The notes beneath the pieces were generated by a model. It did no database searches. It saw nothing but the letters and a program-made list of their open reading frames with translations, and was not told where the DNA came from. A program made the translations under genes and the position numbers. DNA of 64,000 bases from Paraburkholderia acidisoli (GTDB lineage: Bacteria > Pseudomonadota > Gammaproteobacteria > Burkholderiales > Burkholderiaceae), in NCBI RefSeq assembly GCF_009789675.1, contig NZ_CP046914.1:1054001-1118000 (forward strand), given 5' to 3'. Below are positions 1 through 29,253 of the stretch, piece by piece. Each line of letters starts with the position of its first letter. Position 1 is the first letter of the stretch.

Positions 1-180
1 GAGGACCTCGACCGCTGGCTGGGCGCCTACGAGCGCGAGATCATCGCCGCACCGCACTGGGCCGTGGTGAGCGAAGCGCCGCAGATCGCCGCGCGCTTCA
101 TGCATTTCGCGGCGCGCTGCGCGAGTGCGCAACCGCTCCATCCCAACGAATCTTCCCTGCACACCGAGGTGAACCCGTGA
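1..180 (+). CDS. C-terminal end of an unidentified protein (partial)
   Basis: The window opens inside a gene. Frame 1 is open from base 1 and ends at TGA 178-180, giving the last 59 residues (from EDLDRWLGAYEREI to HTEVNP). The segment is hydrophilic and I recognise no domain. Its stop overlaps the GTG start of the next gene by 3 bases (GTGA), so the two are almost certainly co-transcribed and translationally coupled. That links this protein to the hydrolase and acyl-CoA ligase downstream. The true N-terminus lies outside the window, so no function can be given. Confidence 0.75.
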   Translation, partial: EDLDRWLGAYEREIIAAPHWAVVSEAPQIAARFMHFAARCASAQPLHPNESSLHTEVNP

Positions 181-1235
181 GTCCACTCGTTCTGGCTGTC
201 GTGGGTGCCGTTGTCGTCGTTGCGGCGACCACGAGCGTCGTGCTCGCCATCTTTACGAAGCGCGCCACACGCGTGATCGAAGCGTCGGTGCCGATGGACG
301 GCAAGCTCGTCGATGTCGACGGCGACCGCATTCATTATGTCGAATACGGCGAGGGACCGCCCGTGGTGTTCGTGCACGGCCTGAGCGGACAGATGCGCAA
401 CTTCGCGTGGCTGCCCATCGCTGCGCTCGCACGCGAGCATCGCGTGATTCTCATCGATCGCCCCGGCGCGGGCTATTCCACGCGCGGCGCGCAATCGCAG
501 GCCAATATTTATGCGCAGGCGCGCACGGTGGCGCGCTTCATCGAAACGATGCGGCTCGAAGCGCCCGTGCTGGTCGGCCATTCGCTCGGCGGCGCGATTG
601 CGCTGGCCGTGGCACTCGAATACCCGCGGGCGGTGGAGCGCATCGCGCTCATCGCGCCGCTCACGCACGTGCAAACCGAAGTCCCGAAGGCGTTCCGCGC
701 CCTCGTGCTGCGCTCGAAGGCCGTACGGCGCTTCGTTTCGCGCACCTTCGCCACGCCCGTGGGTCTCGCCACGAGCGCCGCCGTCCTGAAGCAGGTGTTC
801 GCCCCCGAGCCCGTGCCCGACGACTTCCCCACGCGCGGCGGCGGTTTGCTGAGCCTGCGGCCGAGCGGCTTCTATAGTGCTTCTGCCGATCTGGTCGCGA
901 TCGAAGATGCCGACGACCTCGCGCAGATGGAACAGCGCTACGGACAACTGACTATTCCTATCGACGTGTTGTTCGGCCGTGAAGACGTGGTCCTCGACTG
1001 GCGGCGTCACGGCGACGCGCTGCGCCGCAAGTCGGAACTCGTCACGCTCAAGGTCGTGAGCGGCGGCCACATGCTGCCCGTCACCGCGCCCTGCACGACG
1101 TTCGACTGGCTGCTCTCCGCCATCGCGGGCACGGCGCACGCCAGCAGCCCGCGCGAGATTCGCGTCGAGCAACCGGCACAGGACATTGCGCGGCGCGGCA
1201 TGCCCGGCGGCGCTAGAGCGACTGCTCGGTACTAA
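177..1235 (+). CDS. Membrane-anchored alpha/beta-fold hydrolase
   Basis: 352-residue protein. A hydrophobic N-terminal segment (about residues 4-26) should anchor it in the inner membrane. It is followed by an alpha/beta hydrolase core: oxyanion-hole motif VHGLSG near residue 67, nucleophile elbow GHSLGG with Ser136, a likely acid at Asp270 in FGREDVV, and the catalytic His in GGHMLP near residue 298. The triad is complete, so an active esterase, lipase or acyl hydrolase is expected; the substrate is unknown. The GTG start overlaps the upstream stop. The acyl-CoA ligase 79 bp downstream suggests that released fatty acids are re-activated, but this is inference. Confidence 0.88.
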   Translation: MSPLVLAVVGAVVVVAATTSVVLAIFTKRATRVIEASVPMDGKLVDVDGDRIHYVEYGEGPPVVFVHGLSGQMRNFAWLPIAALAREHRVILIDRPGAGYSTRGAQSQANIYAQARTVARFIETMRLEAPVLVGHSLGGAIALAVALEYPRAVERIALIAPLTHVQTEVPKAFRALVLRSKAVRRFVSRTFATPVGLATSAAVLKQVFAPEPVPDDFPTRGGGLLSLRPSGFYSASADLVAIEDADDLAQMEQRYGQLTIPIDVLFGREDVVLDWRRHGDALRRKSELVTLKVVSGGHMLPVTAPCTTFDWLLSAIAGTAHASSPREIRVEQPAQDIARRGMPGGARATARY

Positions 1236-1314
1236 AGCCGAGCCATAGCGGGATCGCCCTGCTATCGTCGAAAGAACCGCGCGAAGCGGCATCGACAACA
1301 ATCAGGAGACAACC

Positions 1315-3066
1315 ATGGCCGTGCCCCTCGAGGTGCAGGCGCCGCGCTTTGGCGCGCCCGACACCGACGGTATCTGGTACGACGCGTATCCGCCCGGCGT
1401 GCCGCGCGAGATCGATCCGTCGCAGTACGAAACGATTACGCAGTACTTCGACGAATGCACGGCCGCGTTCCGCGACCGTGTGGCGTACGTAAGCATCGGC
1501 GCTTCGCTCACATACGGCGCGCTCGCGCGCAAGGCCGAAGCGTTCGCGGCGTGGCTGCAAAGCGTGGGCATCCAGCCCGGCGAGCGCGTGGCCATCATGC
1601 TGCCCAACACGTTTCAATATCCGGTGGCGCTGTTCGGCGCGCTCAAGGCGGGTGCCGTGGTCGTCAACGTGAACCCGCTCTACACGCCGCGCGAACTCGC
1701 GCACCAGTTGCGCGACAGCGGCGCGCGCGCGATTGTCGTGTTCGAGAACTTCGCGAAGACGCTCGAAGTGGCGCTGCCCGGCACCCGCGTCGAGCACATC
1801 GCGGTCACGGCGCTCGGCGATCTGCTCTCCGAAGGCGTGAACGTCAAGGGACGTTTGCTCAATTTCGTGCTCAAGCGCGTGAAGAAGATGGTGCCGAAGT
1901 ACTCGCTGCCGAATGCGGTACGCCTGCGCGACGCGCTCGCGCTCGGTGCGAAGCGGCCCATGGCCAATGCGGCGCGCACGAGCGGCGATCTCGCGTTTCT
2001 GCAATACACGGGCGGTACCACGGGCGTGGCCAAGGGCGCGATGCTCACTCACGCGAACATCATCGCGAACGTGCTGCAGGCGAAGGCGTGGTCGGCGTCG
2101 CAACTCGACGGCGACATCGAAACCGTACTCACGCCGTTGCCGCTGTATCACATCTACTCGCTCACAGTGAACGCGCTGATCTTTCTCGGCCTGGGCGGCC
2201 GCAACATCCTGATCGCGAATCCGCGCGACACGAAACGCATGATGATGATCCTGCGCCGCGAGACCTTCACGGGCATCACCGCGATCAACACGCTCTATAA
2301 CGCGCTGCTCGACAACCCCTTGTTTTGCCGGCGCGATTTCTCGGCGCTCAAGCTCGCCATGGCGGGCGGCATGGCCACGCAAAAGGTCGTGGCCGATCGC
2401 TTCAAGGCCGTCACGGGTCAATCGATCGTGGAAGGCTACGGGCTCACCGAGTGTTCGCCGATCGTCGCCACGCATCCCGTCGACCTGAAGAACCCGCGCG
2501 ACTTCGACGGCTCGATCGGCGTGCCGGTGCCGTCCACGCAGGTGCGCTTTCGCCGCGAGGACGGCTCGTGGGCCAATGTCGGCGAGGCGGGCGAGTTGTG
2601 CGTGAAAGGTCCGCAGGTCATGCTCGGCTACTGGAATCGCCCCGACGAAACCGCGCGCGTGCTGGACGACGAAGGCTGGCTCGCAACGGGCGATATCGGC
2701 GTGATGGATGCGCAGGGTTTCATCCGGCTCATCGACCGCAAGAAGGACATGATCCTCGTTTCGGGCTTCAACGTGTACCCGAGCGAGATCGAGGAAGTCG
2801 TGATGATGCTTCCCGGCGTGCGCGAGGTCGCGGCGATCGGCGTTCCCGACGCGGCGCAAGGCGAGCGCGTGAAGGTGTTCGTCGTCGCGCGCGATGCCTC
2901 GCTCACGGCCGACGAGATCCTTCGGCACTGCCGCCGCAATCTCACCGGCTACAAGATGCCGCGCGAAGTGGCGTTCCGCGAGGCGCTGCCGCAAACCAAC
3001 GTCGGCAAGATCTTGCGGCGGGCGCTGCGCGACGAAGAAGTGGCGAAGCTCGAGCCGCGCGCGTGA
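1315..3066 (+). CDS. fadD: Long-chain fatty acid-CoA ligase (FadD-like)
   Basis: 583-residue AMP-forming ligase of the ANL superfamily, which converts fatty acid, ATP and CoA to acyl-CoA. Visible motifs are the phosphate loop YTGGTTGVAKG (residues 231-241), the adenine-binding GYGLTECSP, and the C-terminal hinge and linker DRKKDMILVSGFNVYPSEIE (spanning 20 residues). The catalytic lysine region near the end (NVGKILRR) is present. Length is normal for FadD (about 560 residues). ATG 1315 follows an AGGAGA ribosome site. A DUF1571 lipoprotein-like gene starts 32 bp downstream, so this is probably a three- or four-gene operon. Several paralogues are usual in Burkholderia, so the exact chain-length preference is open. 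Confidence 0.93.
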   Translation: MAVPLEVQAPRFGAPDTDGIWYDAYPPGVPREIDPSQYETITQYFDECTAAFRDRVAYVSIGASLTYGALARKAEAFAAWLQSVGIQPGERVAIMLPNTFQYPVALFGALKAGAVVVNVNPLYTPRELAHQLRDSGARAIVVFENFAKTLEVALPGTRVEHIAVTALGDLLSEGVNVKGRLLNFVLKRVKKMVPKYSLPNAVRLRDALALGAKRPMANAARTSGDLAFLQYTGGTTGVAKGAMLTHANIIANVLQAKAWSASQLDGDIETVLTPLPLYHIYSLTVNALIFLGLGGRNILIANPRDTKRMMMILRRETFTGITAINTLYNALLDNPLFCRRDFSALKLAMAGGMATQKVVADRFKAVTGQSIVEGYGLTECSPIVATHPVDLKNPRDFDGSIGVPVPSTQVRFRREDGSWANVGEAGELCVKGPQVMLGYWNRPDETARVLDDEGWLATGDIGVMDAQGFIRLIDRKKDMILVSGFNVYPSEIEEVVMMLPGVREVAAIGVPDAAQGERVKVFVVARDASLTADEILRHCRRNLTGYKMPREVAFREALPQTNVGKILRRALRDEEVAKLEPRA

Positions 3067-3098
3067 CGCGTGCGAGTTCAATACAGGGAGACAAGACG

Positions 3099-4028
3099 AT
3101 GAAAACGTACAACGGACGGCACCTGATCGCGTGCGCGGTGGTTGCGCTCGCAACGACATCGGCAGGGGCACAAAGCGACACACCGGCGGACACGCAGGCG
3201 AGCGCCCCGGCGTCACCGGCATCGACATCGACATCGACATCGACATCGACATCGGCGGCCGACGTGGCGAAGCTCAGCCCCGAGCAGCAGGTGAAGTGGC
3301 TACAGCATGCACAAAAGAGCGGCGCGCTCGTGAAGATGGACGACGCGCAACTCACCGCGCTGTTCTCGGCGCTCGATCCCGTGGTCGTGCCCACGCTCAT
3401 CAAGCTCGGGCCTTCGGGGTATCCCTCGTATGAATTCACGCTCTCGCGCTGGGAGCGTCTGAATGGCAAGTGGCCGAGCAAGCCCGCGCACATGCTCGTG
3501 AAGCTGGAGCACGACCCGCTGCGTATCTACGCGAAATGGCTGCCCGACGGCGATCACTCGGGCGAGGAAGTCATTTACGACGCCTCGAAGCGCGGCGACG
3601 AAATGTACGGCCATCTGGGCGGCCTGCTCGGCGTGATGCCAATGTGGACCGCGCTGGACGGCACGCTCGCGCGCTCGCAGTCGAATCACAAGATCACGGA
3701 CCTCGGCACGGAGTTCATCGTGAGCCAGTTCATGACCGACGCGAAGAAGTACGTGGAAGTGGGCGCCTCGTACAAGCCGCAGGTGGAAGTGAAAACCGTG
3801 AACGGCGTGCGCGTGGTTGCGCTCACCTATGTCTCGCCGAGCGGCAAGCCGCAGTTCTACGCGAAGAAGCAGACGCTCGGGCTCGACCTGCGGCATCCGT
3901 ATTTCCGCACGGTCGAAGCGTATAACGACGACGGCGAGATCTTCGAGAAGATCGTGATCGACAGCATCACGCCAAAGCAGTTCGACGCCGAAGCGTTCGA
4001 TCCGAAGAACCCCGACTACAAGTTCTAG
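3099..4028 (+). CDS. Exported DUF1571 family protein
   Basis: 309 residues from ATG 3099, chosen because GGGAG lies just upstream and a signal peptide follows (cleavage near SAGAQS, about residue 25). Residues 33-58 are a low-complexity Ala/Pro/Ser/Thr linker containing an alternating Ser-Thr run encoded by a hexanucleotide repeat. The rest matches the DUF1571 family as I recall it: conserved segments such as KMDDAQLTALF, YTLSRWERLNGK-like, and a C-terminal HPYFRTVEAYNDDG region, with an LolA/LolB-like lipoprotein-carrier flavour. It should be periplasmic. The family's role is not established. Its position after an acyl-CoA ligase suggests a lipid or envelope function (inference). Confidence 0.8.
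   Translation: MKTYNGRHLIACAVVALATTSAGAQSDTPADTQASAPASPASTSTSTSTSTSAADVAKLSPEQQVKWLQHAQKSGALVKMDDAQLTALFSALDPVVVPTLIKLGPSGYPSYEFTLSRWERLNGKWPSKPAHMLVKLEHDPLRIYAKWLPDGDHSGEEVIYDASKRGDEMYGHLGGLLGVMPMWTALDGTLARSQSNHKITDLGTEFIVSQFMTDAKKYVEVGASYKPQVEVKTVNGVRVVALTYVSPSGKPQFYAKKQTLGLDLRHPYFRTVEAYNDDGEIFEKIVIDSITPKQFDAEAFDPKNPDYKF
3221..3254 (+). repeat. In-frame hexanucleotide repeat (ATCGAC)n
   Basis: Five perfect ATCGAC copies (3221-3250) plus a partial sixth. They encode alternating Ser-Thr just after the signal peptide of the DUF1571 protein. A six-base unit can expand or contract by slippage without breaking the frame, so only linker length would vary. Confidence 0.9.
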
Positions 4029-4067
4029 CGTCTGCTTCAAGGCGCTCGCCGCCGCGCCGAAACACAA

Positions 4068-4085
4068 AGGTGAGGGTTTTCGGGA
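4068..4085 (+). repeat. Distal iteron copy, origin-type
   Basis: AGGTGAGGGTTTTCGGGA fits the consensus AGGTGAGNNTTTNCGGGA of the origin repeats (14.2-15.6 kb). It lies about 10 kb from the origin array, between the convergent ends of the DUF1571 and DsbG-like genes. It is probably a Rep-binding site. Confidence 0.8.
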
Positions 4086-4128
4086 GGGTGCGTTCGTTGC
4101 GCGGTCAAGTTTCACCCTGAGCGCGTTC

Positions 4129-4146
4129 TCCTGGAACTCCTCACCT
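4129..4146 (-). repeat. Distal iteron copy, inverted
   Basis: The reverse strand reads AGGTGAGGAGTTCCAGGA, which matches origin iterons ending in CAGGA (14434, 14501, 14752, 14796). Together with the copy at 4068 it forms a head-to-head pair 61 bp apart in one intergenic region. Confidence 0.72.
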
Positions 4147-4201
4147 TTTCGCGTTGGGCGGTGAGATAACGATGCTTCGTTGACCTCACCGCTCGCGCGG
4201 T

Positions 4202-4816
4202 TTATCGATACTTTTGCAATTCAGGATCGGTGATCGGTTGCGCGGGCAGGTTCAGCATGCCGGGCAACTGGCTCAGCTTCGGCAGGCCGCTGATATCGGC
4301 CCAGCGTCCGCCCGAGCCGCGATAGATGAGCGTGGGCGTACCGTCGAAACCCAGATCCTGAAAGAGCTGCACGTTGGCGTTCAGGCGGTTTTGATCGTCG
4401 AAGGAAATATTCGCGAGCGGTGCAATGCCGCCCGATTCGTCCTTCTCCGAATAGTGCGTTTCGAGTTGCCTGAGCAACGCGGCGCCGTCCTTCGATTCCA
4501 GCAAAGCGGCCGCTTTTCCAGCGGAATCCGGCTTCAGGAAGCCCATCGGAATCCAGTGCACCTGCAAGCCCGCGGCTTCATACGGTTGCAGCGCTTTCCA
4601 CACCAGGTGACAGTAAATACAGTTAGGGTCCATGAAGACGTAAAGCGTCGATTTCACATTCGCGCCACTCGCGCCTTCCACGATCGCGCTGGCGCCCTGA
4701 AAGCGCGAGATAGCGGATGCGGGCAACCACGAAGGTTGCGGGCCGTCCGCGGCCATGGCGGATGCCGTGAGCGAAACCGCGGCGGCGGCGATCAGTGTGC
4801 GTATCAACGTCTTCAT
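4202..4816 (-). CDS. DsbG/DsbC-like periplasmic thiol:disulfide protein, short form
   Basis: 204 residues from ATG 4816, which has AGGAAA upstream and begins a clear signal peptide ending in ASAMA-A. The mature part holds a thioredoxin-fold motif, MDPNCIYCH (CxxC about residues 66-69), and the cis-proline loop GTPTLIY near residue 160, as in DsbC/DsbG disulfide isomerases. E. coli DsbG is about 248 residues and starts with a dimerisation domain. Here only about 40 residues precede the redox strand, so that domain is missing or much reduced and the protein may be monomeric. The ORF remains open further upstream, but those residues look non-coding. Inverted and direct iterons flank the gene on both sides. 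Confidence 0.85.
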   Translation of the reverse strand: MKTLIRTLIAAAAVSLTASAMAADGPQPSWLPASAISRFQGASAIVEGASGANVKSTLYVFMDPNCIYCHLVWKALQPYEAAGLQVHWIPMGFLKPDSAGKAAALLESKDGAALLRQLETHYSEKDESGGIAPLANISFDDQNRLNANVQLFQDLGFDGTPTLIYRGSGGRWADISGLPKLSQLPGMLNLPAQPITDPELQKYR

Positions 4817-4895
4817 GCTTTTCCTTTGTCTTGCTGCGCGCGCCACCTGGCGCGTGCTCGAACGCGAAGCCAAGTATGTTAGGGCCAGGGCGTGA

Positions 4896-4947
4896 CGCGT
4901 TGCTGGCGCGAACATGGCACGAGTGACAGGTTCGCGCCAGCAACGCG
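4896..4947. repeat. 18-bp perfect inverted repeat (long hairpin)
   Basis: The arm at 4896-4913 (CGCGTTGCTGGCGCGAAC) is the exact reverse complement of 4930-4947, separated by 16 bases. There is no T-tract on either side, so it is not a typical terminator. It lies upstream of the DsbG-like gene and 8 bp before a perfect iteron (4955). It could be a protein-binding palindrome or a recombination or regulatory hairpin. Confidence 0.85.
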
Positions 4948-4954
4948 CGGGCAA

Positions 4955-4972
4955 AGGTGAGAGTTTGCGGGA
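4955..4972 (+). repeat. Distal iteron copy
   Basis: AGGTGAGAGTTTGCGGGA fits the origin iteron consensus at every fixed position. It lies in the gap between the DsbG-like gene and the outer-membrane protein gene, about 9.3 kb from the origin array. Confidence 0.8.
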
Positions 4973-5005
4973 GCCGGTGCGCAATTCGCAGCGCCGGCGC
5001 CAGAG

Positions 5006-5581
5006 CTAGAACTTGAAGCGCAGCTGGAAGCCGATGGTGAACGGCAGGTCGTCGGAAGGGATAGGCGGCACGACGATGAAGTTGATACCCACGCGCTTGT
5101 ACGCGACCATCACGAGCGGCGCGGCCACGGGGCCGATCGTGTGATTGCGGCCGAGACCCCAGTTGCCGTAGTTGTAGCCGCTGATAATGCCGCCCATGGC
5201 TGCGAGCCGCACGAAGCCCCAGTGCAGGAATTCAGGCGCCCATACGCCGCCCGCGTACCAAGACGGCCGGCGCAGCGAATTACGGAAGCCGCCGCCGGTC
5301 ACGGCCCACTGGTCGTTGATCCAGCATTCCACGCCCAGCCCCGGATTGAACTGCTCGAAATCTTTGTCGGGGTTGATGTGATACGACGCGACCATGGCGT
5401 CGACCCACACACCCGAACTGCACCAGTCCGCCGCCTGCGCCGAGGGCGCCGCGCCCAGCATCAGCAGCGAACCGAGCAGCGCCGCCGCAACGGCGCGCGT
5501 CCTTTTGCCTGCGTACTGCTGTGGGGTATCGACCGACGTGCGCGTGCGTGCCGCGCCACCTTGCTTCTGCCAAAACCGCAT
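5006..5581 (-). CDS. Small outer-membrane beta-barrel protein, PagP-like context, unassigned
   Basis: 191 residues from ATG 5581, chosen because GGAG lies 5 bases upstream; longer in-frame starts lack a site. A long basic N-terminus leads into a signal peptide (core AAALLGSLLMLGAA, cleavage after SAQA). The mature part is about 140 residues, rich in aromatic and glycine residues in alternating patterns, and ends in QLRFKF, a typical C-terminal barrel strand with a terminal aromatic residue. Size and layout resemble small 8-stranded barrels such as PagP. I do not see PagP's catalytic residues with certainty, so the enzymatic role stays open. Confidence 0.72.
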   Translation of the reverse strand: MRFWQKQGGAARTRTSVDTPQQYAGKRTRAVAAALLGSLLMLGAAPSAQAADWCSSGVWVDAMVASYHINPDKDFEQFNPGLGVECWINDQWAVTGGGFRNSLRRPSWYAGGVWAPEFLHWGFVRLAAMGGIISGYNYGNWGLGRNHTIGPVAAPLVMVAYKRVGINFIVVPPIPSDDLPFTIGFQLRFKF

Positions 5582-5819
5582 GGGCTCTCCGTCCATTCTT
5601 GCGCCGGGCCGCTTGGGGCCCGTTGTTGTTCTCGGGTTGCGGGTACGAGGTGAAGCGCAAACTGTACCGCAAGCCGATGCGCGTGCAATGGAATCGCAGC
5701 TCGAATCGAGCCGCGATGCGTCCATCGCACGTCGCCGCCATGATGCCAGCGGCGTGAGTCGGCGCGATGAATGCTTTGTCGATAGAGCCAGGCCGCATGG
5801 GCAGGCGACGAAAACGCGC

Positions 5820-6299
5820 TCAGAGACCGAGGTCGCTCAGGCTCGCGTGATCGTCGGGACGGCGGCCCAGCGGCCAGTGATAGAGACGATCGGCTTCGCG
5901 AATCGGCAGATCGTTGATGCAGGCGAAACGGCGCGCCATCAAACCGTTTTCGTCGAACTCCCAGTTCTCGTTGCCGTACGAGCGGAACCAGTTGCCCGAA
6001 TCGTCGTGCCATTCATACGCGAAGCGCACCGCGATGCGATTGTCCGTGTACGCCCACAGTTCCTTGATCAGGCGATAGTCGAGTTCGCGCGCCCACTTGC
6101 GTGCGAGAAAGCCCTCGATCGCCTCGCGCCCCGTGACGAATTCCGCGCGATTGCGCCATACGCTTTGCGGCGTGTAGGCGAGCGCCACGCGCTGCGGATC
6201 GCGCGAATTCCAGCCGTCTTCGGCGGCGCGCACTTTCTGGATCGCGGTTTCGCGCGTGAAGGGAGGCAGCGGCGGGCGCACTTCGTTCGAATCACTCAT
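5820..6299 (-). CDS. DUF1348 / SnoaL-like (NTF2-fold) protein
   Basis: 159 residues from ATG 6299. It matches DUF1348 proteins: [18 protein letters not shown] near the start, [13 protein letters not shown], a central [12 protein letters not shown] and a C-terminal [13 protein letters not shown]. The NTF2-like fold is usual for small ligand-binding or isomerase-like enzymes; the substrate is unknown. Its start overlaps the end of the upstream TetR gene by 8 bp, so the pair is an operon and the regulator probably responds to a compound this protein handles. Confidence 0.87.
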
Positions 6300-6960
6300 G
6301 GTCTTGCTCCTTGCGGGGATGGGCGCGCCGGGCCGGCGCACTACGGTGTGAGTCTTGGGGCGCGAGCGCGTCGAGCAGATGACGGCCGGCGGTGCGGGCG
6401 TCGAGCGCCGCGTCGGCTTCGCCGCTCACGAGCGCCACGCCGATCGCGCCGTCGATCAGGATCAGCCACTGGCGGGCGAACCGCGCGGCCACGCGGCTGT
6501 CGGCGCCGGTTTCGGCAGCCCACGCATCGCTTTGTTCGCGCACGAATTCGAGCAGCCGTTCCTTGTGATAGCGCGCAACGCGGCGAATCGGATCGTCCGG
6601 CGACGCGATCTCGCCCGCCGCGTTGAGAAACGCGCAGCCATGAAAGCCGTCCGAAGCGAACCATTCGCGCAGCACGTCGAACATCGCCAGCAGGCGCGTT
6701 TGCGGCGTGCGCGCGCGGGCGAGCGTGCCTTCGATAAACCAGCGCATCCAGCGCTCGTCGCGCCGTTCGAGCGCGGCGGCCACGAGCGCGTCTTTCGATT
6801 CGAAGTACGTGTAGAAGCTTTTGCGCGCGGCGCCCGCGGCACGCACGATGGCATCGACGCCCGTGGCGTGAATGCCGCCCGCGTAAATCAGGGCTTCGGC
6901 GGCTTCGAGCAGGCGTTCGCGGGCGTCGGCTTGCGGCGCGGTGGATTCAGTGGCGTTCAT
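6292..6960 (-). CDS. TetR/AcrR family repressor
   Basis: 222 residues. The N-terminal helix-turn-helix covers about residues 12-58 ([15 protein letters not shown], then [26 protein letters not shown]), typical of TetR. The remainder is a helical ligand-binding domain containing [13 protein letters not shown], as in many TetR proteins of the LefR/AcrR type, and a charged tail. It is divergent from the YceI gene. Two copies of a palindrome lie just upstream (6996-7044), the likely operator for autorepression and possibly for control of the divergent gene. It is co-transcribed with the SnoaL-like gene. Confidence 0.9.
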
Positions 6961-6995
6961 GGTTGGGCGTGGCTCGACTTCACTTGCGGAATTTT

Positions 6996-7044
6996 GGGGA
7001 GAATGATCGTTCTCCCCAGACGCAGAGTAGAACGATCATTCTCC
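6996..7044. promoter_or_regulatory. Twin TetR operators
   Basis: AGAATGATCGTTCT (7000-7013, within a longer GGGGAGA...TCTCCCC palindrome spanning 6996-7017) and its reverse complement AGAACGATCATTCT (7029-7042) lie 29 bp apart, centre to centre. Both are in the divergent gap between the TetR and YceI genes. The spacing is close to three helical turns, which fits two repressor dimers on one DNA face. Confidence 0.82.
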
Positions 7045-7181
7045 GTCGTCAAGCGTTTTTCTCGCTCGTGCGCCGCGAAAGAAAATGTCGATAAAGTGGG
7101 AAGAGATGGGACACGCCAGCCGTTTTAGCGTGATGGCGGCCGCGCCGCACGCGGTTCTGGGTGATTTTTGGGGAGAAAGCG

Positions 7182-7850
7182 ATGAAATCTGCGCGATCAC
7201 GGCTCGCGGCGCTCGCCGTGACCCTGGCAATAGGCGCGGCGCTTTGCGCGGCGAGCCTCGCCGCGTGCACGCCGCTGCGCGTGGTCACGCACACGGTCAC
7301 ACGCACCGAAGCCGACGTGCCGCCGGGTCATTACGTAATGGACGCGCATCACTGGAGCGTGATCTTCGACGTCGATCACTTCCATTACTCGCGCTTCGTC
7401 ATGCGCTTCGACCGCGCGCAGGCGCAACTCGACTGGCGCACGGGCGGACTCGAGACCGCGTCGGTCGACGCCACGATCGACGCCGCCAGTCTCGACACCA
7501 ACGTGGCCGCGCTCGATACGATGGTGAAAGGCGCGCAGATGCTGGATGCGGCGCGTTATCCGCAGATCCGTTTTGTGAGCACGCATTTCGAGCGTACCGG
7601 CGAGGGGCGCGGCACGCTCACGGGCGATCTGACGATCCACGGCGTGACCCAACCCGTGACGCTCGAGGTCACGCTCAACGGCTACGCGCCGAATCCGCTC
7701 ACGAAGCAACCCACGGTGGGCTTCGCGGCGAGCGGCCATTTCAGCCGCGCGAAGTTCGGTTTGTCGACGTGGTTCCCGGCCGTGGGCGACGATGTCGGCG
7801 TTCGCATCGAGGCCGAATTCGCGCAGCCCGCGCCGGGGGCATCGCCATGA
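7182..7850 (+). CDS. YceI family lipoprotein
   Basis: 222 residues from ATG 7182, which follows GGGGAGAAAGCG. A signal peptide ends in a lipobox (SLAAC), so this copy is probably a lipoprotein rather than the usual soluble periplasmic form. The YceI lipocalin-like fold is evident: MDAHHWSVIFDVDHFHYSRF, then FDRAQAQLDW, a central MLDAARYPQIRFVSTHFE, and LTIHGVTQPVTLEV near the C-terminus. YceI proteins bind isoprenoid or amphiphilic ligands, which may be relevant in a replicon rich in hopanoid genes. It is divergent from the TetR gene and convergent with tdh, 18 bp away. Confidence 0.9.
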   Translation: MKSARSRLAALAVTLAIGAALCAASLAACTPLRVVTHTVTRTEADVPPGHYVMDAHHWSVIFDVDHFHYSRFVMRFDRAQAQLDWRTGGLETASVDATIDAASLDTNVAALDTMVKGAQMLDAARYPQIRFVSTHFERTGEGRGTLTGDLTIHGVTQPVTLEVTLNGYAPNPLTKQPTVGFAASGHFSRAKFGLSTWFPAVGDDVGVRIEAEFAQPAPGASP

Positions 7851-7868
7851 AACCGCTGGCGAGAAGAC

Positions 7869-8897
7869 TCAGGCCGCCCAGTCGAGAATGACTTTGCCGC
7901 TTTCGCCCGAGAGCATCGCCGCGAAGCCTTTTTCGTAGTCGTCCACGCCGAAGCGATGCGTGATGATCGGCGAAAGATCGAGCCCGCTTTGCAGCATCGC
8001 GACCATCTTGTACCAGGTCTCGAACATCTCGCGGCCGTAAATGCCCTTGATTTCGAGGCCCTTGAAGATGACCTGATTCCAGTCGATGGCGGTTTGCGCG
8101 GGCGGAATGCCGAGCAGCGCGACCTTGCCGCCGTGGTTCATGGCTTCGAGCAACGCCGTGAACGCGCTGGGCACACCCGACATCTCGAGGCCCACGTCGA
8201 AGCCTTCGGTCATGTGCAATTCGGCCATCACGTCGCGCAGCGATTCGCGCGAGACGTTGACCGCGCGCGTCGCGCCCATCTTGCGCGCGAGTTCGAGGCG
8301 GAAATCGTTGACGTCCGTGATGACCACGTTGCGCGCGCCCACGTGCTTCGCGATCGCCACGGCCATGATGCCGATCGGTCCCGCGCCCGTGATGAGCACG
8401 TCCTCGCCGACCAGATTGAACGACAGCGCCGTATGCGTGGCGTTGCCGAACGGATCGAAAATGGCCGCGAGGTCGTCGCTGATTTCGGGCGGAATCTTGA
8501 ACGCGTTGAAGGCCGGAATCACGAGATATTCGGCAAACGCACCCTCGCGATTCACGCCCACGCCCGTGGTGTTGCGGCACAAATGACGGCGCCCCGCGCG
8601 ACAGTTGCGGCAAAACCCGCAGGTGATGTGCCCTTCGCCGGACACGCGATCGCCAATGGCGAAACCGCGCACCTCCTGGCCCATTTCGACGATTTCGCCC
8701 ACGTATTCGTGGCCCACGTGCATGGGCACGGGAATCGTTTTCTGCGCCCAGTCGTCCCACTTCCAGATATGAATGTCGGTGCCGCAAATCGCCGTCTTGC
8801 GGATCTTGATCATCACGTCGTTATGACCGACTTCGGGCTTCTTCACGCGCGTGAGTGTGAGACCGGGCGCGCGTTCGAGTTTGGCGAGTGCTTTCAT
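7869..8897 (-). CDS. tdh: L-threonine 3-dehydrogenase
   Basis: 342 residues, the normal length. This zinc- and NAD-dependent medium-chain dehydrogenase oxidises L-threonine to 2-amino-3-ketobutyrate. Catalytic zinc ligands are Cys38 ([10 protein letters not shown]) and His/Glu in HVGHEYVG. The structural zinc cysteines are in [15 protein letters not shown], and the NAD-binding motif is GAGPIG. It starts 16 bp after the kbl stop, forming the kbl-tdh operon, whose two enzymes convert threonine to glycine and acetyl-CoA. Confidence 0.97.
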
Positions 8898-8913
8898 TGT
8901 TTCGGATTCCCTA

Positions 8914-10125
8914 TCAAATCACGCCGAGCTGCTTGCCCACGCGCGCGAAGGCGTCGACGGCCCGCCCGATCTGCTCCGGCGTGTGCGCCGCGCTCATCTG
9001 CGTGCGAATGCGCGCGCGGCCCTTCGGCACGACCGGATACGAGAAGCCAATCACGTAGACGCCTTCGCCGAGCAATGCGTCGGCCATTTTCGAGGCCACT
9101 TGCGCGTCGCCGAGCATCACCGGAATGATCGGATGCTCGCCCGGCACGAGCGTGAAGCCGAGCGCGCTCATGTCGCGGCGGAATTGCGCGCCGTTTTCGC
9201 GCACGCGGCGGCGCAGCTGTGCGCCTTCTTCGCTCGCGATCAGTTCGAGCACGGCCAGCGACGCGGCGGCGATGCTCGGCGTGAGCGTGTTCGAAAACAG
9301 GTACGGGCGCGAACGCTGGCGCAGCAATTCGACCACTTCCTTTTTCGCCGCGACATAGCCGCCCGAGGCGCCGCCGAGCGCCTTGCCCAACGTGCCCGTG
9401 ATGATGTCCACGCGCTGCGCGACGCCGCAATGTTCGGGCGTGCCGCGGCCGTGTTCGCCGATAAAGCCCACCGCGTGCGAGTCGTCCACCATGACGAGCG
9501 CGCCATAGCGGTCGGCGAGATCGCAGATGCCCTTGAGGTCGGCGATGATGCCGTCCATGGAGAATACGCCGTCGGTTGCGATGAGCTTGTAGCGCGCGCC
9601 GGCGGCATCGGCCTCCTGCAGCTTTGCTTCGAGGTCCGAAAGATCGTTGTTCTTGTAGCGATAGCGGCGCGCCTTCGAGAGCCGCACGCCGTCGATGATG
9701 CTCGCGTGATTGAGTTCGTCGCTGATGATGGCGTCTTCGTCGCCGAGCAGCGTTTCGAACAGACCGCCGTTCGCGTCGAAGCAGCTCGAATAGAGAATGC
9801 AGTCCTCGGTCTGCAGGAACGCCGCGAGCGCACTCTCGAGCTGCTTGTGCACGGTTTGCGTGCCGCAAATGAAACGCACCGACGCCATGCCGAAGCCGTC
9901 GCGATCGAGTCCGTCCTTCGCCGCCGCGACGAGCCGCGCGTCGTTGGCGAGGCCGAGGTAATTGTTGGCACAGAAGTTGAGAACGTCGGCACCATTCGCA
10001 AGCTGAATGCCGGCGGATTGCGGCGTGGCAATCACGCGCTCGTGCTTGTAAAAGCCGTCGGCGCGGATCTGCTCGAGCGTGGCGCGCAGGTGGTCGAGGT
10101 ACGGGGTACGCATCGGGTCGGACAT
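8914..10125 (-). CDS. kbl: 2-amino-3-ketobutyrate CoA ligase (glycine C-acetyltransferase)
   Basis: 403-residue PLP enzyme of the alpha-oxoamine synthase family. It cleaves 2-amino-3-ketobutyrate with CoA to glycine and acetyl-CoA. Motifs seen are FCANNYLGL near the N-terminus, [13 protein letters not shown], the cofactor Asp/His in [11 protein letters not shown], and the PLP lysine in [10 protein letters not shown]. It is the first gene of kbl-tdh. The upstream gap is shared with a divergent XRE-cupin regulator and is packed with GTTCG/CGAAC half-sites, so regulation by that protein is likely. Confidence 0.96.
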
Positions 10126-10180
10126 GTCTCGGGCTCCTGACAGGGGCGGCCGCGGCTGCTATAGTCGCCGTCAGCCATGA

Positions 10181-10229
10181 GCGAACATTTTCTTTATTTC
10201 GAACCTATGTTCGATATACCGAACGAACT
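10181..10229. promoter_or_regulatory. Operator array between kbl and the XRE-cupin gene
   Basis: CGAAC and GTTCG half-sites recur: GCGAAC (10181), CGAAC-N4-GTTCG (10200-10213), GTTCG-N6-CGAAC (10209-10224) and a further CGAAC overlapping the end. This is the expected target of the XRE-cupin regulator encoded 25 bp downstream. It could control both divergent units. Confidence 0.68.
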
Positions 10230-10248
10230 CTAAACGATGAGGCCGTGA

Positions 10249-10935: not shown

Positions 10936-10987
10936 AGGTGCGGCCGCCCGGCTAGCCGAACGGATGAGGCTGCGTAATCGGCTCGAA

Positions 10988-11007
10988 TACTGTATATTTA
11001 TACAGTA
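10988..11007. promoter_or_regulatory. LexA (SOS) box
   Basis: TACTGTATATTTATACAGTA is a 20-bp near-perfect palindrome matching the CTGT-N8-ACAG LexA box. It ends 21 bp before the ATG at 11029. Promoter elements probably overlap it. It predicts DNA-damage induction of the next gene. Confidence 0.88.
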
Positions 11008-11028
11008 AATGCCCGACCGGAGCCGTCA

Positions 11029-11442: not shown

Positions 11443-11474
11443 TGGCAGTTGAGAACGCACGGTTTACCGGCTCA

Positions 11475-11503
11475 TGACCGACGGCGCGCACTATCGCTAT
11501 AAT
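11475..11503 (+). promoter_or_regulatory. Putative sigma-70 promoter of the recombinase-like gene
   Basis: A consensus TATAAT (11498-11503) lies 31 bp before the ATG at 11535, with a weak TGACCG 18 bp upstream. The recombinase-like gene may therefore be transcribed independently of the LexA-boxed gene. Confidence 0.5.
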
Positions 11504-11534
11504 CACCTGTAATGCAACTAACGGAGTGATAGAG

Positions 11535-12527: not shown

Positions 12528-12611
12528 CGCCGATACGGCAAAGTCCCACGGGCAGGCGGTTTCAGCTGGCAACGCGCCCCGTATATCCTCACCCTCCTGC
12601 GCCGTAATCGC

Positions 12612-12629
12612 TCCCGTAAAGCATCACCT
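12612..12629 (-). repeat. Distal iteron copy, inverted
   Basis: The reverse strand reads AGGTGATGCTTTACGGGA, a near-exact match to the origin copies at 15059 and 14893. It lies between the convergent ends of the recombinase and KfrA-like genes, 1.6 kb from the main array. Confidence 0.78.
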
Positions 12630-13831
12630 CAAACCTTGACGCGCGACGCCGATTTGCCCGCAAAGCGTGCGAGCGCTTCGAGCCGCGAGGCGCCCGGGCC
12701 CGACGTGTAGTCGCATTCCGGACACGACAGCTCGAAGCCGTCTTCCACCTCCGCGAGTTCCGGCTCGCCTTCCTGACAATTGGGGCACCGCGCCGGCAGG
12801 CTCACGTGACCATCCACCGCTTTGCCAAGTTGCGCGATTTCGCTCTCGCCGAGGCGGCCGGCCTCGGCCAGCGAGCACAACACCGCGGCCACCGAGGCAT
12901 CGACGCCCTGTTGCCCGCGCAGCGCCGACACCTGGCGCGTCAACACATCCACTTCATCCGAACGTTCGCGCAGAATCGCGTCGAGCCGGTCGGCGCGCGC
13001 CTTCGCGGTCGCGATCTGCTGGATGAAGTCGAATTCCTTTTTGCTCGCGTCGCGTTGCGCGGCCTGCCATGTCGACGACATCGAGCGCAACGAGTCGAGT
13101 TCGACGAGCATCGGCTTGACGCGCCGCTCGGCTTCCGCGAGGGCGTCCTTGATTTGCTGCGCGTAGTGCTCGGTGCTCTTGCGCATCTCTTCGTGCAGAC
13201 CGTCGATACGGTCGCGCAAACCCGCGTTCGTCGTTTGTTCGGTTTCGATGCGCTGACGTAGCGACTCGTTCTCTGTTTCGAGCCGCTGCAGCAAGACATC
13301 GCGATTGCCCTGATGCAGCACGCCTTGCGCGGAACTGGCCGCAAGCTGGCTTTCGAGCTCGCGAACGCGAATGTAGGCGGCTTCGGTCCGGGCTTCGCTG
13401 CGCTGAAGCATCTCGTCGGCGGCGGCGCGGCGCGCTTCGGCTTCGCGGGTGGCCTGCTCGGCGTCGCGCTGTCCGGCTTCGAATTCGGCACGCTCGGCTT
13501 GCAAGGCTTCGCGCGCGAGCGCCAGCGATGATTCGAACAGCGCACCCAGCAACTCGCCCGCGCGTTCTTCGAGCGCAGGCGGAATCGCGCCCGCACCGAC
13601 CCGCACTTTCGATGTGCTGCGAATGCGCTGCCAAAACAGCTCGATGTCTTTGGGAATGTCGCTGGCACTGCCGGTCTGCGTCAGATCGCGGACGGTGGCC
13701 ATCGACGGGCGAATCTCGAAATCGAAGAACAAACGCTTGCAGGCATGCAACGACAACTCCTGCCGTCGCGCACCGTTTGCGCGCAGTTTGTCGAGTTCTT
13801 CGCGGATAACCTCGCGGTCTTGATCACGCAT
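12629..13831 (-). CDS. KfrA-like coiled-coil DNA-binding protein with C-terminal zinc ribbon
   Basis: 400 residues from ATG 13831; the frame stays open to a TTG at 13870. The N-terminal 100 residues match the KfrA DNA-binding domain (VIREELDKLRANG, ACKRLFFDFEIRPSMATVRD, DIPKDIELFWQRIR). A very long coiled coil (about 105-310) of Ala/Glu/Arg heptads follows. The tail carries two cysteine pairs, CPNC and CPEC, 19 residues apart, which look like a zinc ribbon not found in classical KfrA. On IncP plasmids KfrA is an autoregulated accessory protein that forms filaments and aids stable inheritance. Here it borders the origin and an upstream inverted repeat, so a nucleoid or segregation role is likely. 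Confidence 0.83.
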   Translation of the reverse strand: MRDQDREVIREELDKLRANGARRQELSLHACKRLFFDFEIRPSMATVRDLTQTGSASDIPKDIELFWQRIRSTSKVRVGAGAIPPALEERAGELLGALFESSLALAREALQAERAEFEAGQRDAEQATREAEARRAAADEMLQRSEARTEAAYIRVRELESQLAASSAQGVLHQGNRDVLLQRLETENESLRQRIETEQTTNAGLRDRIDGLHEEMRKSTEHYAQQIKDALAEAERRVKPMLVELDSLRSMSSTWQAAQRDASKKEFDFIQQIATAKARADRLDAILRERSDEVDVLTRQVSALRGQQGVDASVAAVLCSLAEAGRLGESEIAQLGKAVDGHVSLPARCPNCQEGEPELAEVEDGFELSCPECDYTSGPGASRLEALARFAGKSASRVKV

Positions 13832-13863
13832 ATTCGTATTCTCGGCAGGGGAGTGGCCGAATA

Positions 13864-13882
13864 ATAACAAATTACGTGTTAT
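13864..13882. promoter_or_regulatory. Inverted repeat upstream of the KfrA-like gene
   Basis: ATAACA (13864-13869) and TGTTAT (13877-13882) are separated by 7 bp. They lie 33 bp before the KfrA-like ATG. KfrA proteins repress their own promoters, so this is a plausible operator. Confidence 0.6.
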
Positions 13883-13980
13883 TTGCTACATATTTTCGTG
13901 GTCCTGGCTCCGCTAGGCGGTCGCGGCGCTTTCTTGGGCGATTCGACCGTTTCTATCGCGGCGATGTCGCCTGACTATCG

Positions 13981-14199: not shown

Positions 14200-14328
14200 A
14201 GGCAAGGCTTTCCGGGCGATCAGGTGAAGCTTTACGGGAAGCCTGGTGAGCGCTTGCGGGATTGCGCGGTGACGGGGTTCGGGACTGTGGGTGAGGAACA
14301 GCGGGAAAGGTCGTGAGCGGGTTCGGGA
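14200..14328 (+). repeat. 22-bp-phased iteron array
   Basis: Six units start at 14200 (degenerate), 14222, 14244, 14267, 14289 and 14311, with steps of 22-23 bp, two turns of the helix. The best copies read AGGTGAAGCTTTACGGGA and TGGTGAGCGCTTGCGGGA. The even phase places all Rep-binding sites on one DNA face, so this is the most likely core for initiator assembly. Confidence 0.88.
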
Positions 14329-14355
14329 GCGCCGTAATTCTTGACTCCGCGGCAA

Positions 14356-15556
14356 AGGTGAGCGAATTCGGGAGGATGATACCGGCCGGCTGGGCGATAC
14401 GCGGAAAATATGACGCTGTTACGGGAAATGCAACAGTGAGCGGATTCAGGACCGTCGATTGAGTGAGTTTTTGGGTCGAATTAGCGGGGCTCGGCAGCGC
14501 AGGTGAGTTTAATCAGGAAAGAAATCGCCGTGAGGGTGAGGTTTTTCGGGGCTTCGAGGCCAAATCCGCGCCCTCGGCCGCTTTTTCGGGCTTGAGGTGA
14601 GTATTTTCGGGAGATCGAAGACCGGACCGAAGTTGGCTTCGATGTATCGCACTCGCCTTGGCGGTCATTGCGCCGCTCCAAGGTGAGAGTTTTCGGGACC
14701 GGTGGTCGGTGGTGCGATTTATGCAGACTTCACGGCACGCAAAGGCGCTTGAGGTGAGGCTTTGCAGGAGCGATTTTGTGCCCGCAAAAGCCTTGAGGTG
14801 AGGCAATACAGGAAGAAGTGGGCGGTCACTGCGCTAGAAGGCCCGGATTTACGTGAACATTTCCGGAATGGACTGACGCTCCTGGAATCCTGAGGTGAGG
14901 CTTTACGGGAGTCATGGTTCGGGCTGTTTTTTGGCCGCGCCTTGCGTATCGGGTGGTTTAAGGTGAGATTTTACGGGGCGCTGCGCGATGTTCTGCCTGC
15001 TTCGTCGTTTGTGGATAAGTGGTGGATTCTATTGATTTTTCTGCTAAAGCCATCAAACAGGTGATGCTTTTCGGGAGCCCTCGCAGCCCAGGCTTCAATC
15101 GCTCTCCCTACGTCAAAGGTGAGATTTTCCGGGAACGAAAACACGCTCAAACGCGACTGGGTAAGGATCCCGGCAAGCTGGATTCTCATCGTCGCAAGCG
15201 GGAAAGGTGGGGATTTTCGGGATCCAAAACCGAAATTCTGCGCCGATGGCGAGCCGATTTCACGCCTGGACGCCAAAATTCAGCGATTTCTGTTGGTAAA
15301 AGGCTGGGATAGAGCGCTTCGCGGGCGTTGATGCGTCATGAAGCAATCCATCATGCGCCGAACGGCGGCCACTTCACTTCACCGCCTCCCGCGGTCAGCC
15401 AATACGGCTCTTTCCGGCAAAATTTTTGAGGTGAGCTAATACGGGAGGCATTCTGGACCTTGAGTTCCGGTCGCAAAACGCGGCCAACGGGCAAATCCCC
15501 AACAGTCAAAGCACCAGGCCGGGCGCGGGTTTGCGCTGAGGTGAGGCTTTTCGGGA
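14356..15556 (+). repeat. Dispersed iterons of the origin
   Basis: Fifteen further 18-bp copies, all in direct orientation, start at 14356, 14434, 14501, 14534, 14595, 14681, 14752, 14796, 14893, 14961, 15059, 15117, 15205, 15429 and 15539. Consensus: AGGTGAGNNTTTNCGGGA, with CAGGA replacing CGGGA in a few. Many spacings are close to multiples of 11 or 22 bp (33, 44, 67, 88, 98, 110). A degenerate copy is visible at 14851. Confidence 0.9.
15010..15018 (-). promoter_or_regulatory. DnaA box
   Basis: TGTGGATAA, the exact reverse complement of TTATCCACA. It sits in the longest iteron-free gap of the central array, next to an AT-rich stretch (15018-15055). Confidence 0.8.
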
Positions 15557-15676: not shown

Positions 15677-17032
15677 ATGGCCACGAAGCGCGTGAAAAAA
15701 ACCGATGTGGTGAGTCCCAGTTCGGCGGAATTGCGCAAAGCCGTCGAGGCGATCGCGATCCAGCCGAAAAGCGGCAAAATCACCCTCCTGACGCGCAAGC
15801 TGTTCAACGTGCTGCTTGCCGTCGCCCAGCAGGCGGACGAGTCCGGCGACACCTATCGTGCGCTGCTCTCGGACATCGTCGCCAATTCGGCCTTCGACTC
15901 GAACGATACCGCGCTCGTGAAGGAACACCTGCGTCGCATGGTGTCGGTGCAGGTCGAATGGAGCCAGGGTACGTCGAGCCAGAAGCCAGGGCGCAAGTGG
16001 GGCATTTCCACGTTGATCGCCGACGCCGAAATTCTCGAAGACCCAACCACGCGGCGGGTCTGGGTCGAGTTCTCGTTCGCGCCGAAGATCAAGAAGAAGT
16101 TGCTCGATCCGGTTCAGTATGCGCGCTTGAGTCTGCAGTTCCAGAGCCAGCTGCGCAGCAGCGCGGGTCTCGCGCTTTACGAGATCTGCGTGCGCTATCT
16201 CACGAATCCCAGCCATCTGACGATGCGGGAAACGTGGGAATGGTGGCGGCCGATCCTTTCCGGCACGCCGGATACCGAAGCCGGCGACGAGGCCAAGCGC
16301 GAATACAAATACTTCAAGCGCGATTACCTGCGGCCCGCGATCGCCGAAGTGAATGCCGTCACGAACATTTTCGTCGAGCTGATCGAGCATCGCGAAGGAC
16401 GGCGCGTCGCCGAGATCCAGTTCCGCGTGACCGAGCGCAAGCAACCGATGCTCGCGCTCGATGAACATCCGAACGTTTTCGACAGCACGCTCGTGGACCG
16501 GATGGTCAAGATCGGCATCCCGCTCAAGGAAGCCCAGTCGCTTTACGCCGACAGCGAGGAAAACCGCATTCGCGCCGCCCTGCAACTGACGGAGCAGCGC
16601 ATGCGCAGCACGAGCCTGCCGCCCGTGCGCAGCGCCGCGGCTCTCTTCAAGGACGCGTTGAAAAAGGGCTATGCGCCGCCGGTCGAGACGCAGGCCGGCG
16701 CGGCGCCGGCCGCGGGACGTGTGACCGCCTCGGTGACCGCGGACGATCCGAAGGCGCGTTTGCTCGACGAATATGCCGCATGGCGTCGCAAGGAGGCGCG
16801 CGCGCTCTACGACGAGCAGGGCGACGCGGAGCGCGAAGTCGCGCGGCAATCGTTCGAAGCGGATGAGTTGCCCGGGCTCGGCGCGCATTTGCGCGACGAC
16901 TGGCGCCGTCGTGGGCTGGATTCGAAGCTCGCAGACTCGGCGTTTTTCGACTGGCTTGCCCGCAAGACGTGGGGCGCACCCACGGATGGCGATCTGCTGT
17001 CCTTCACGCTGAATCAGACTCGCGCGGCCTGA
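15677..17032 (+). CDS. repA: Rep_3 family replication initiator
   Basis: 451-residue initiator protein that binds the iterons and opens the origin. The N-terminal half matches the Rep_3/RepB superfamily: KITLLTRKLFNVLLAVAQ at residues 34-51 (first winged helix), then FSFAPKIKKKLLDPVQYARL, a region of SSAGLALYEICVRYLTN and EWWRPILSG, and a second winged helix (about 190-250). The last 190 residues are charged, with an Ala/Pro linker near 330-350, and exceed plasmid RepE or pi length (about 250-300). Extended C-termini are usual for chromid initiators. No strong ribosome site precedes ATG 15677. parAB is convergent with it. Confidence 0.92.
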   Translation: MATKRVKKTDVVSPSSAELRKAVEAIAIQPKSGKITLLTRKLFNVLLAVAQQADESGDTYRALLSDIVANSAFDSNDTALVKEHLRRMVSVQVEWSQGTSSQKPGRKWGISTLIADAEILEDPTTRRVWVEFSFAPKIKKKLLDPVQYARLSLQFQSQLRSSAGLALYEICVRYLTNPSHLTMRETWEWWRPILSGTPDTEAGDEAKREYKYFKRDYLRPAIAEVNAVTNIFVELIEHREGRRVAEIQFRVTERKQPMLALDEHPNVFDSTLVDRMVKIGIPLKEAQSLYADSEENRIRAALQLTEQRMRSTSLPPVRSAAALFKDALKKGYAPPVETQAGAAPAAGRVTASVTADDPKARLLDEYAAWRRKEARALYDEQGDAEREVARQSFEADELPGLGAHLRDDWRRRGLDSKLADSAFFDWLARKTWGAPTDGDLLSFTLNQTRAA

Positions 17033-17141: not shown

Positions 17142-17161
17142 GATCGTCTACCACTGGCCGC

Positions 17162-18225: not shown

Positions 18226-18241
18226 CTTTATGCGCATAAAG
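18226..18241. promoter_or_regulatory. parS site 1, between parA and parB
   Basis: CTTTATGCGCATAAAG, a perfect 16-bp palindrome. It begins one base past the parA stop and its AAAG end forms part of the AAAGGA ribosome site of parB. Confidence 0.92.
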
Positions 18242-28401: not shown

Positions 28402-29253
28402 TTGGCCGTTTCCAACCTCGTCGTGGACGATACACAACACACCGACGCCGCCGCCGCTTCGTCGGGCAGCTCGTTTTATCTGGCGATGCGGATTCTGCCT
28501 CCCGCGCAGCGCGACGCCATGTATCAGGTCTACGCTTTTTGCCGCGCTGTCGACGACATCGCGGACAGCGACCTCCCGCGCGCCGAGCGTGCGGCGGCGC
28601 TCGACCAGTGGCGCGCCGACATCGACGCGTGCTACGCCGGCACGCCGCGCGCCTCGCTGGCAGCGCTCACGCGTCACATCCATACGTTCGGGCTGCAGCG
28701 CGAGGACTTCCACGCGATGATCGACGGCATGGCGATGGACGCGGCCGAGGACATCTGCGCGCCCGACGAAGCCACGCTCGATCTCTACTGCGACCGCGTG
28801 GCGAGCGCGGCGGGCCGCCTGTCGGTGAGAATTTTCGGGATGCAGGAGGCGCCCGGCCGCGCGCTGTCGCACCATCTGGGACGCGCGCTGCAACTGACGA
28901 ACATCCTGCGCGACATCGACGAAGACGCGGACATCAACCGCTGCTATCTGCCGCGCGAACTGCTGGCGCGCGAGGGTATCGGCGCGTCGAATCCGCATCA
29001 GATCGCCGCGGATGCGAAACTGCCGCGCGTGTGCGACACGCTCGTGCAGCGCGCGCTCGCGCATTTCGCCGAAGCCGACGCGATCATGGACGCCGCGCCG
29101 CGCGCCGAAGTCAGGGCGCCGCGCATCATGTCCGGCGTCTATCGCGTGCTGCTCGAACGCACGGTCAAACGCGGGTTCGACCTGCCGCGCACGAAAGTCA
29201 GCAAGCCGCGCGCGCGGCTGATGTGGATCGTCGCGCGCTACTGGTTGTTCTGA
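28402..29253 (+). CDS. hpnD: Presqualene diphosphate synthase HpnD
   Basis: 283 residues from TTG 28402, chosen because GGAG lies 6 bp upstream and the sequence AVSNLVVDDTQ follows; a longer frame begins at ATG 28243 but is unlikely. It condenses two farnesyl diphosphates to presqualene diphosphate. Both aspartate-rich motifs are present: FCRAVDDIADSD and LRDIDEDADINRCYLP. Membership of the squalene/phytoene synthase family is clear from SVRIFGM and NILRDIDED. Its stop overlaps hpnE by 1 bp. An iteron-like sequence (28823-28840) lies inside the coding region and is probably coincidental. Confidence 0.93.
   Translation: MAVSNLVVDDTQHTDAAAASSGSSFYLAMRILPPAQRDAMYQVYAFCRAVDDIADSDLPRAERAAALDQWRADIDACYAGTPRASLAALTRHIHTFGLQREDFHAMIDGMAMDAAEDICAPDEATLDLYCDRVASAAGRLSVRIFGMQEAPGRALSHHLGRALQLTNILRDIDEDADINRCYLPRELLAREGIGASNPHQIAADAKLPRVCDTLVQRALAHFAEADAIMDAAPRAEVRAPRIMSGVYRVLLERTVKRGFDLPRTKVSKPRARLMWIVARYWLF

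Follow-up and report, generated by a model that had tools for sequence, protein, structure and literature searches.

An inverted pair of 18-bp sites near the origin of the second chromosome of Paraburkholderia acidisoli is, as comparison with related sequences indicates, one station in a conserved set of remote origin-type sites. By analogy with other replicons, we consider it probable (about 0.58) that the pair represents conserved remote sites for the initiator Rep, which would titrate or handcuff the initiator and so limit re-initiation. The window, i.e. the whole 64,000-nt stretch that was analysed, spans positions 1054001–1118000 of the 1,829,290-bp contig C2, which belongs to a genome (G000) of 7.95 Mb in five contigs.

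The site pair and its replicon

As the first-pass annotation had proposed, two 18-bp matches to the origin repeats occur on opposite strands, the plus-strand site being exact and the minus-strand site, which faces it, carrying two mismatches (Table 1). The 61 bp given for their separation is the start-to-start distance, with an intervening gap of 43 bp, and the nearest origin repeat begins at 14200, in agreement with the ~10 kb that had been stated. The flanking genes are indeed convergent, encoding a DUF1571 protein (plus strand, ending at 4028) and a DsbG-like protein (minus strand, ending at 4202), the latter scoring under the cut-off of the DsbG model. Two aspects of the original description had to be revised: the pair does not consist of two equal iterons, since the site on the minus strand is of a different class, of which origins contain hardly any members, and it is not an isolated feature, since it belongs to a set scattered over up to ~270 kb.

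Table 1. Coordinates of the features of the window (positions counted from its first nucleotide; scores in bits on the origin-derived matrix).
Feature	Position	Strand	Details
Remote iteron	4068..4085	+	Exact match to AGGTGAGNNTTTNCGGGA; 29.6 bits
Variant (V) site AGGTGAGGAGTTCCAGGA	4129..4146	-	Faces the 4068 site; 2 mismatches to AGGTGAGNNTTTNCGGGA; 22.0 bits
Third remote iteron	4955..4972	+	Exact; between the 5′ end of the dsbG-like gene and the stop of the next gene
Degenerate pair, 3′ end of kfrA-like gene	12577-12594, 12612-12629	-	3 mismatches and 1 mismatch, respectively; 35 bp start to start
KfrA-like DNA-binding protein, possible alternative binder	12629..13870	-	PF11740
Origin iteron array	14200..15556	+	18 matches at ≤3 mismatches, all on the plus strand, upstream of rep
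rep, Rep_3 initiator, putative binder of the sites	15677..17032	+	PF01051 WH1, E 1.2e-11; PF21205 WH2, E 5.9e-10
parB	17162-18217	-	Context
parA	18242-19018	-	Context
parS-like 16-bp palindromes, central CG	18226..18241, 19036-19051, 19358-19373		Sequence unlike the iteron sites
Match with one mismatch, within a coding region across the origin from the pair	28823..28840	+	26.2 bits; membership of the set uncertain

Chance was ruled out as the origin of the matches by shuffled, genome-wide, genus-wide and V-pattern controls. Within the window, 26 matches were found at up to three mismatches, against 0.75 expected, a number reached in 0 of 100 shuffles. Scored with a matrix built from 1115 origin sites, the right-hand 46.9 kb of the window gave a best value of 3.9 bits, save for the site at 28823. 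A search of window positions 1–20000 against Rfam at the gathering threshold yielded nothing.

The replicon resembles the Rep_3-initiator iteron type, both in the domains of its initiator (WH1 and WH2) and in the direct repeats upstream of rep. Relatives of this initiator are found in Paraburkholderia, and a PDB sequence search returned no match for Rep. At about −3 kb from rep, a site in the opposite orientation was present in all 23 Paraburkholderia genomes compared, and in 18 of these there were two, 24 or 35 bp apart; near the kfrA-like gene we also observed a tyrosine recombinase gene (Phage_integrase family, XerC/D-like; 11526-12527).

Across the whole P. acidisoli genome, 43 matches were detected at up to two mismatches, compared to eight for a reversed-pattern control. 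Among the 31 with no or one mismatch, 29 lie on the rep-bearing contig C2 and two on the 186-kb contig C5, and the five matches on C1, C3 and C4 all have two mismatches, leaving the 0–1-mismatch class absent from the other 5.9 Mb. The equal density on the primary chromosome that the first-pass annotation had named as evidence against its proposal was thus not observed. C2 has 15 exact sites, of which ten are not part of the origin; two of these ten form a pair (283995/284102) at a distance of 785 kb from rep. On C5, whose own Rep_3-like gene lies ~30 kb off, two one-mismatch iterons are 32 bp apart (C5:67466-67515; locus L008, 7467-7516); there may be cross-talk with chromosome 2.

A variant site class and its distribution

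The minus arm of the pair is a member of a distinct conserved class with the consensus WGGTGAGGARTTCCAGGA, and not a decayed iteron. Iterons and V sites have GGTGAG, TT, C and GGA in common and are told apart by positions 10 and 15. The V pattern GGTGAGNNNTTCCAGGA, of which the 4129 site is the sole exact match in the P. acidisoli genome, has exact matches in 91 of 97 genomes (control, 0 of 97), with many copies in arrays and others as scattered singles. In 61 stretches, none of the sites in the minus orientation with A10/A15 (n = 76) or G10/A15 (n = 54) lay within 2 kb of rep; of the plus-orientation iterons (T10/G15), 353 of 382 did. Exact V sites numbered 156 at remote positions versus eight at origins in 69 Paraburkholderia stretches or genomes, and the class is nearly absent in other genera (one remote exact site in 32 genomes). 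The 156 remote sites score 17.8–22.5 bits, compared to a 10th percentile of 16.9 and a median of 25.5 for origin sites. V sites are probably Rep sites of a different affinity or binding mode, judging from their sequence, and this is the weakest step of our argument; given how few V sites occur at origins, they could instead be recognised by some other protein.

V arrays lie ~10–20 kb upstream of rep and hold up to nine exact copies, or 11 when one mismatch is allowed, mostly in the opposite orientation and with spacings recurring at 18, 29–31, 38, 55 and 76 bp; in one genome, the V unit forms a 73-bp tandem repeat of ~4 copies. Two loci (L064 in G036 and L098 in G050) contain two or three V arrays each within ~6.5 kb, which suggests turnover of whole arrays.

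Among the 20 loci most similar to window positions 3700–5300 (L010–L029), a V site at up to one mismatch was present in 18, and an opposite-facing iteron within 210 bp of the V site in 17, at 26–206 bp start to start, so that the 61-bp spacing is not fixed. The third remote iteron has an exact or one-mismatch counterpart in 16 of 20 related loci. In 12 aligned loci the spacer had turned over, while the iteron was kept in 11 and the V motif in 12, the latter figure following from the selection of these loci for the V motif. The start-to-start spacing shifts from 61 to 36–37 bp with a diverged spacer, both motifs being retained.

Exact iteron matches were found in all 58 congeneric genomes scanned, at 3–18 apiece, and the reversed control gave 0 of 58. 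For positions relative to rep, we used 21 near-complete Paraburkholderia genomes, i.e. P. acidisoli and 20 few-contig genomes picked from the 97; the compared genomes are related, so their counts are not independent events, and the genus names of part of them were inferred from named loci. Two approximations leave the distance classes unaffected: one contig (of G013) was taken 6.2 kb short, and in three genomes that have rep at the start of the contig its position was placed near the contig end. In this set, 264 of 271 exact matches fall on the rep contig, and all 102 origin matches share the orientation of rep. Between −2.2 and −50 kb from rep there are 93 exact matches, 83 in the opposite and 10 in the same orientation; between −50 and −300 kb there are 52, divided 22 to 30. 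Of the 162 non-origin matches on rep contigs, 145 lie 2–300 kb upstream, two within 300 kb downstream and 15 farther away, the P. acidisoli pair at 785 kb among them. In ten genomes of other genera, 101 of 103 exact matches were on the rep contig and sites at +90 to +270 kb downstream occur, which restricts the one-sidedness to Paraburkholderia. Overall, origin-type sites are enriched outside the origin on the same replicon, the exceptions amounting to 2/31 in P. acidisoli, 7/271 in Paraburkholderia and 2/103 in the other genera.

Four genomes (G023, G068, G076 and G095) carry a chromosome-2 type rep on contigs of 6.6–7.0 Mb (C1 in each), possibly as a result of chromosome fusion; even so, none of the 13 exact iterons of G023 is more than 73 kb away from rep.

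Gene neighbours and alternative readings

Gene calls from a purpose-built caller trained on the P. acidisoli genome place only one of 474 remote sites in 69 genomes within a called gene, though called genes cover 71% of bases. Convergent gaps hold 197 of these sites and divergent gaps 18, against backgrounds of 92,920 and 65,490 bases, respectively.

Some neighbours are constant. A distal pair, with its sites 181–362 bp apart and facing the same way as the origin array, occurs in exact form in 16 of the 21 Paraburkholderia genomes, has a relaxed base in P. acidisoli and G094, and is absent from G023, G025 and G074; in G019, which lies outside the 21, its direction is reversed. The pair lies 3′ of an H-NS-family gene (PF00816) in P. 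acidisoli and in all 20 fetched Paraburkholderia loci, which had been picked for having pairs (two exact sites, or in G094 one exact and one near-exact). In five of five Burkholderia-type genomes, the end of this H-NS-like gene and a remote iteron are separated by ~4–5 bp; four of these genomes have them at +132 to +160 kb and the fifth at −249 kb; no H-NS-like gene was present at five fetched loci of other genera. The four Burkholderia-type genomes with the iteron at +132 to +160 kb additionally have 6–8 sites (up to one mismatch), 23 bp or near-multiples apart, ~3 kb from the H-NS-like gene. In G107, a dense iteron-like array with a mostly 23-bp period (C2; L272, 3210-3458) lies ~155–157 kb from rep; a second origin there was rejected, as by-eye inspection of the open reading frames listed around the array revealed no Rep-like one. 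An SDR-linked pair was likewise retained in nine of nine loci (L154–L162) at 106–118 bp spacing, and because this pair persists 785 kb from the origin in P. acidisoli, early duplication is not needed for retention.

Such constancy would be expected if Rep or another regulator acted through the sites on transcription, with the H-NS-like and SDR genes as targets: the sites keep these neighbours as their distance from the origin changes, and six of the 17 remote C2 sites examined in P. acidisoli lie in divergent gaps. We nevertheless regard this as quite unlikely, given the preference for convergent over divergent gaps across the 69 genomes and the fact that the sites adjoin the SDR and H-NS-like genes at their 3′ ends; moreover, Vibrio cholerae RctB appears, in the accessible reports, to regulate only its own transcription. 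An unlikely but more credible reading is that some other protein, for example the KfrA-like one, occupies the V arrays and possibly every remote site, for segregation or domain organisation and not for initiation control. The substitutions at positions 10 and 15, the near confinement of V to remote arrays with recurring spacings and mostly opposite orientation, and the one-sidedness in Paraburkholderia all fit such a binder, but V retains the shared iteron bases, scores in the origin range, sits among true iterons and is nearly absent in other genera. Nor are the sites parS: those of secondary replicons are described in the accessible text of PMC5450999 as 16-bp palindromes with a central CG and a T-rich 5′ end, whereas the remote sites are not such palindromes, and the three candidates beside parAB are a separate sequence.

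It is very unlikely that the sites are neutral remnants of an ancestral origin region broken up by rearrangement, even though they are concentrated on the origin side and have kept their neighbouring genes when rearrangements occurred, as the motifs are retained where flanking spacers have diverged or no longer align (true of many, not all, distal pairs, at loci selected by motif). Three reduced relatives of ~1.1–1.2 Mb (G103, G123 and G162; loci L124, L140 and L141) encode a Rep of 77–82% identity and keep origin iterons on contigs of 61–72 kb, and remote sites were not found in their fetched 20-kb rep stretches, which fits loss of function or general decay alike. Least probable of all is a role of the inverted pair as a bidirectional transcription terminator or an RNA hairpin between the convergent genes, with only a secondary likeness to iterons. 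Positions 4060–4152 (plus strand) do fold at −44.3 kcal/mol (z −5.1), and a second hairpin beside the pair, with GGTGAG/CTCACC arms (4150–4210, z −5.5), is partly kept in relatives; however, any inverted copies fold, a scan of 3900–5100 gave no intrinsic-terminator-like site, the hairpins failing the test for a GC-rich hairpin followed by a T-run, and in several genomes (e.g. G006, G050 and G028) V forms tandem direct repeats without a nearby facing iteron. The other genomes thus show selection acting on lone sites that have no inverted partner, which speaks against a hairpin role. We also considered a checkpoint site of the crtS kind on the primary chromosome; crtS is unlike iterons, so that a checkpoint of unrelated sequence may exist there. 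Of 12 fetched loci with GGTGAGCTTTTCCAGGA, seven fall into two homologous groups and five match no other, so that this sequence has no single conserved place.

Proposed role and relation to known systems

Titration or handcuffing by Rep, as suggested in the first-pass annotation, is retained here as the likeliest role, because remote copies of the origin iteron are confined almost wholly to the rep replicon and are conserved; its framing in terms of an isolated pair of equal iterons is not. Rep would bind the remote sites, as the shared consensus and replicon confinement lead us to infer, and a control function is suggested by the precedents of V. cholerae RctB and E. coli datA. The remote sites would double soon after initiation as the fork passes; the doubled sites could then take up Rep, pair with Rep-bound origin iterons (handcuffing), or both, which would make it less likely that the origin fires again before the cell cycle is over.

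Titration alone leaves the orientation bias and the fixed gene neighbours unexplained. In Paraburkholderia, most proximal iterons and V arrays point away from the origin, and the distal pair beside the H-NS-family gene points back to it. A speculative extension, unlikely as it stands, is that an oriented domain next to the origin is built from the remote sites, in which Rep bridges convergent stations with the origin and so joins initiation control to long-range looping, V being a second Rep recognition mode that evolved in Paraburkholderia.

The literature found says little, outside Vibrio, on how large second chromosomes of the Burkholderia type are limited to one round of copying per cell cycle. 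The conserved remote sites are concrete DNA elements of a replicon whose initiator is of the plasmid Rep_3 type, and they suggest that dispersing initiator sites is a recurrent means of adapting a plasmid origin to a chromosome-sized replicon, for which the V class and the H-NS-linked distal sites provide new handles.

Remote sites of a Burkholderia second replicon had been thought undescribed, which needs correction: Du et al. 2016 (PMC4948915), in the legend of their S1 Table, mention further iteron copies on c2 of B. cenocepacia J2315, with a second cluster 140 kb anticlockwise. Their consensus ctCCCGAAAAacCTCACCTtt is the reverse complement of the P. acidisoli iteron, i.e. the same iteron, and in the accessible text of that paper the remote copies receive one sentence without analysis. 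A cluster at +132 to +160 kb is found in four Burkholderia-type genomes (G107, G143, G165 and G184); in B. cenocepacia CMCC(B)23006, no match at up to one mismatch was found at about −187 to −38, +107 to +156 and +156 to +192 kb from rep. The same paper reports a slight left-arm deficit of c2 in J2315; one-sided sites were considered as an explanation and set aside, as in four of five Burkholderia-type genomes the distal cluster and the proximal sites are on opposite sides of rep. Our literature search, which covered few subscription journals, returned no title on remote iterons of Burkholderia or Paraburkholderia, and relative to the literature found, the V class, the conservation, the one-sidedness and the H-NS link are apparently new.

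The closest precedent is V. cholerae chromosome II, for which remote RctB sites are on record (PMC3937223, PMC6090056, PMC11711613); in vitro, RctB binds the remote iterons there, and these iterons also reduce the copy number of poriII (PMC3937223). In the accessible parts of these reports, deletion of one remote chromosome-II site gave no growth phenotype, and mutation of three prominent RctB sites had a minimal effect on Chr2 replication, one site being weakly negative. The Paraburkholderia-type initiator differs from RctB in having Rep_3 domains, and its putative sites are more numerous, spread over up to ~270 kb, conserved across genera and orientation-biased. The V site resembles the iteron, whereas the V. 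cholerae 39-mer is described as lacking similarity to the 12-mer. E. coli datA and the chromosomal DnaA titration sites likewise provide additional places for an initiator away from the origin of the replicon that carries them, as far as the accessible descriptions go, but serve a different initiator from the Rep_3 Rep. datA promotes hydrolysis of DnaA-ATP, a process to which we know of no counterpart for Rep_3 initiators. In plasmids P1 and F, incA and incC are second iteron arrays in cis to a Rep-dependent origin that act by titration and handcuffing; these arrays lie within a few kb of the origin, whereas the remote sites of the P. acidisoli type lie 10–270 kb from theirs.
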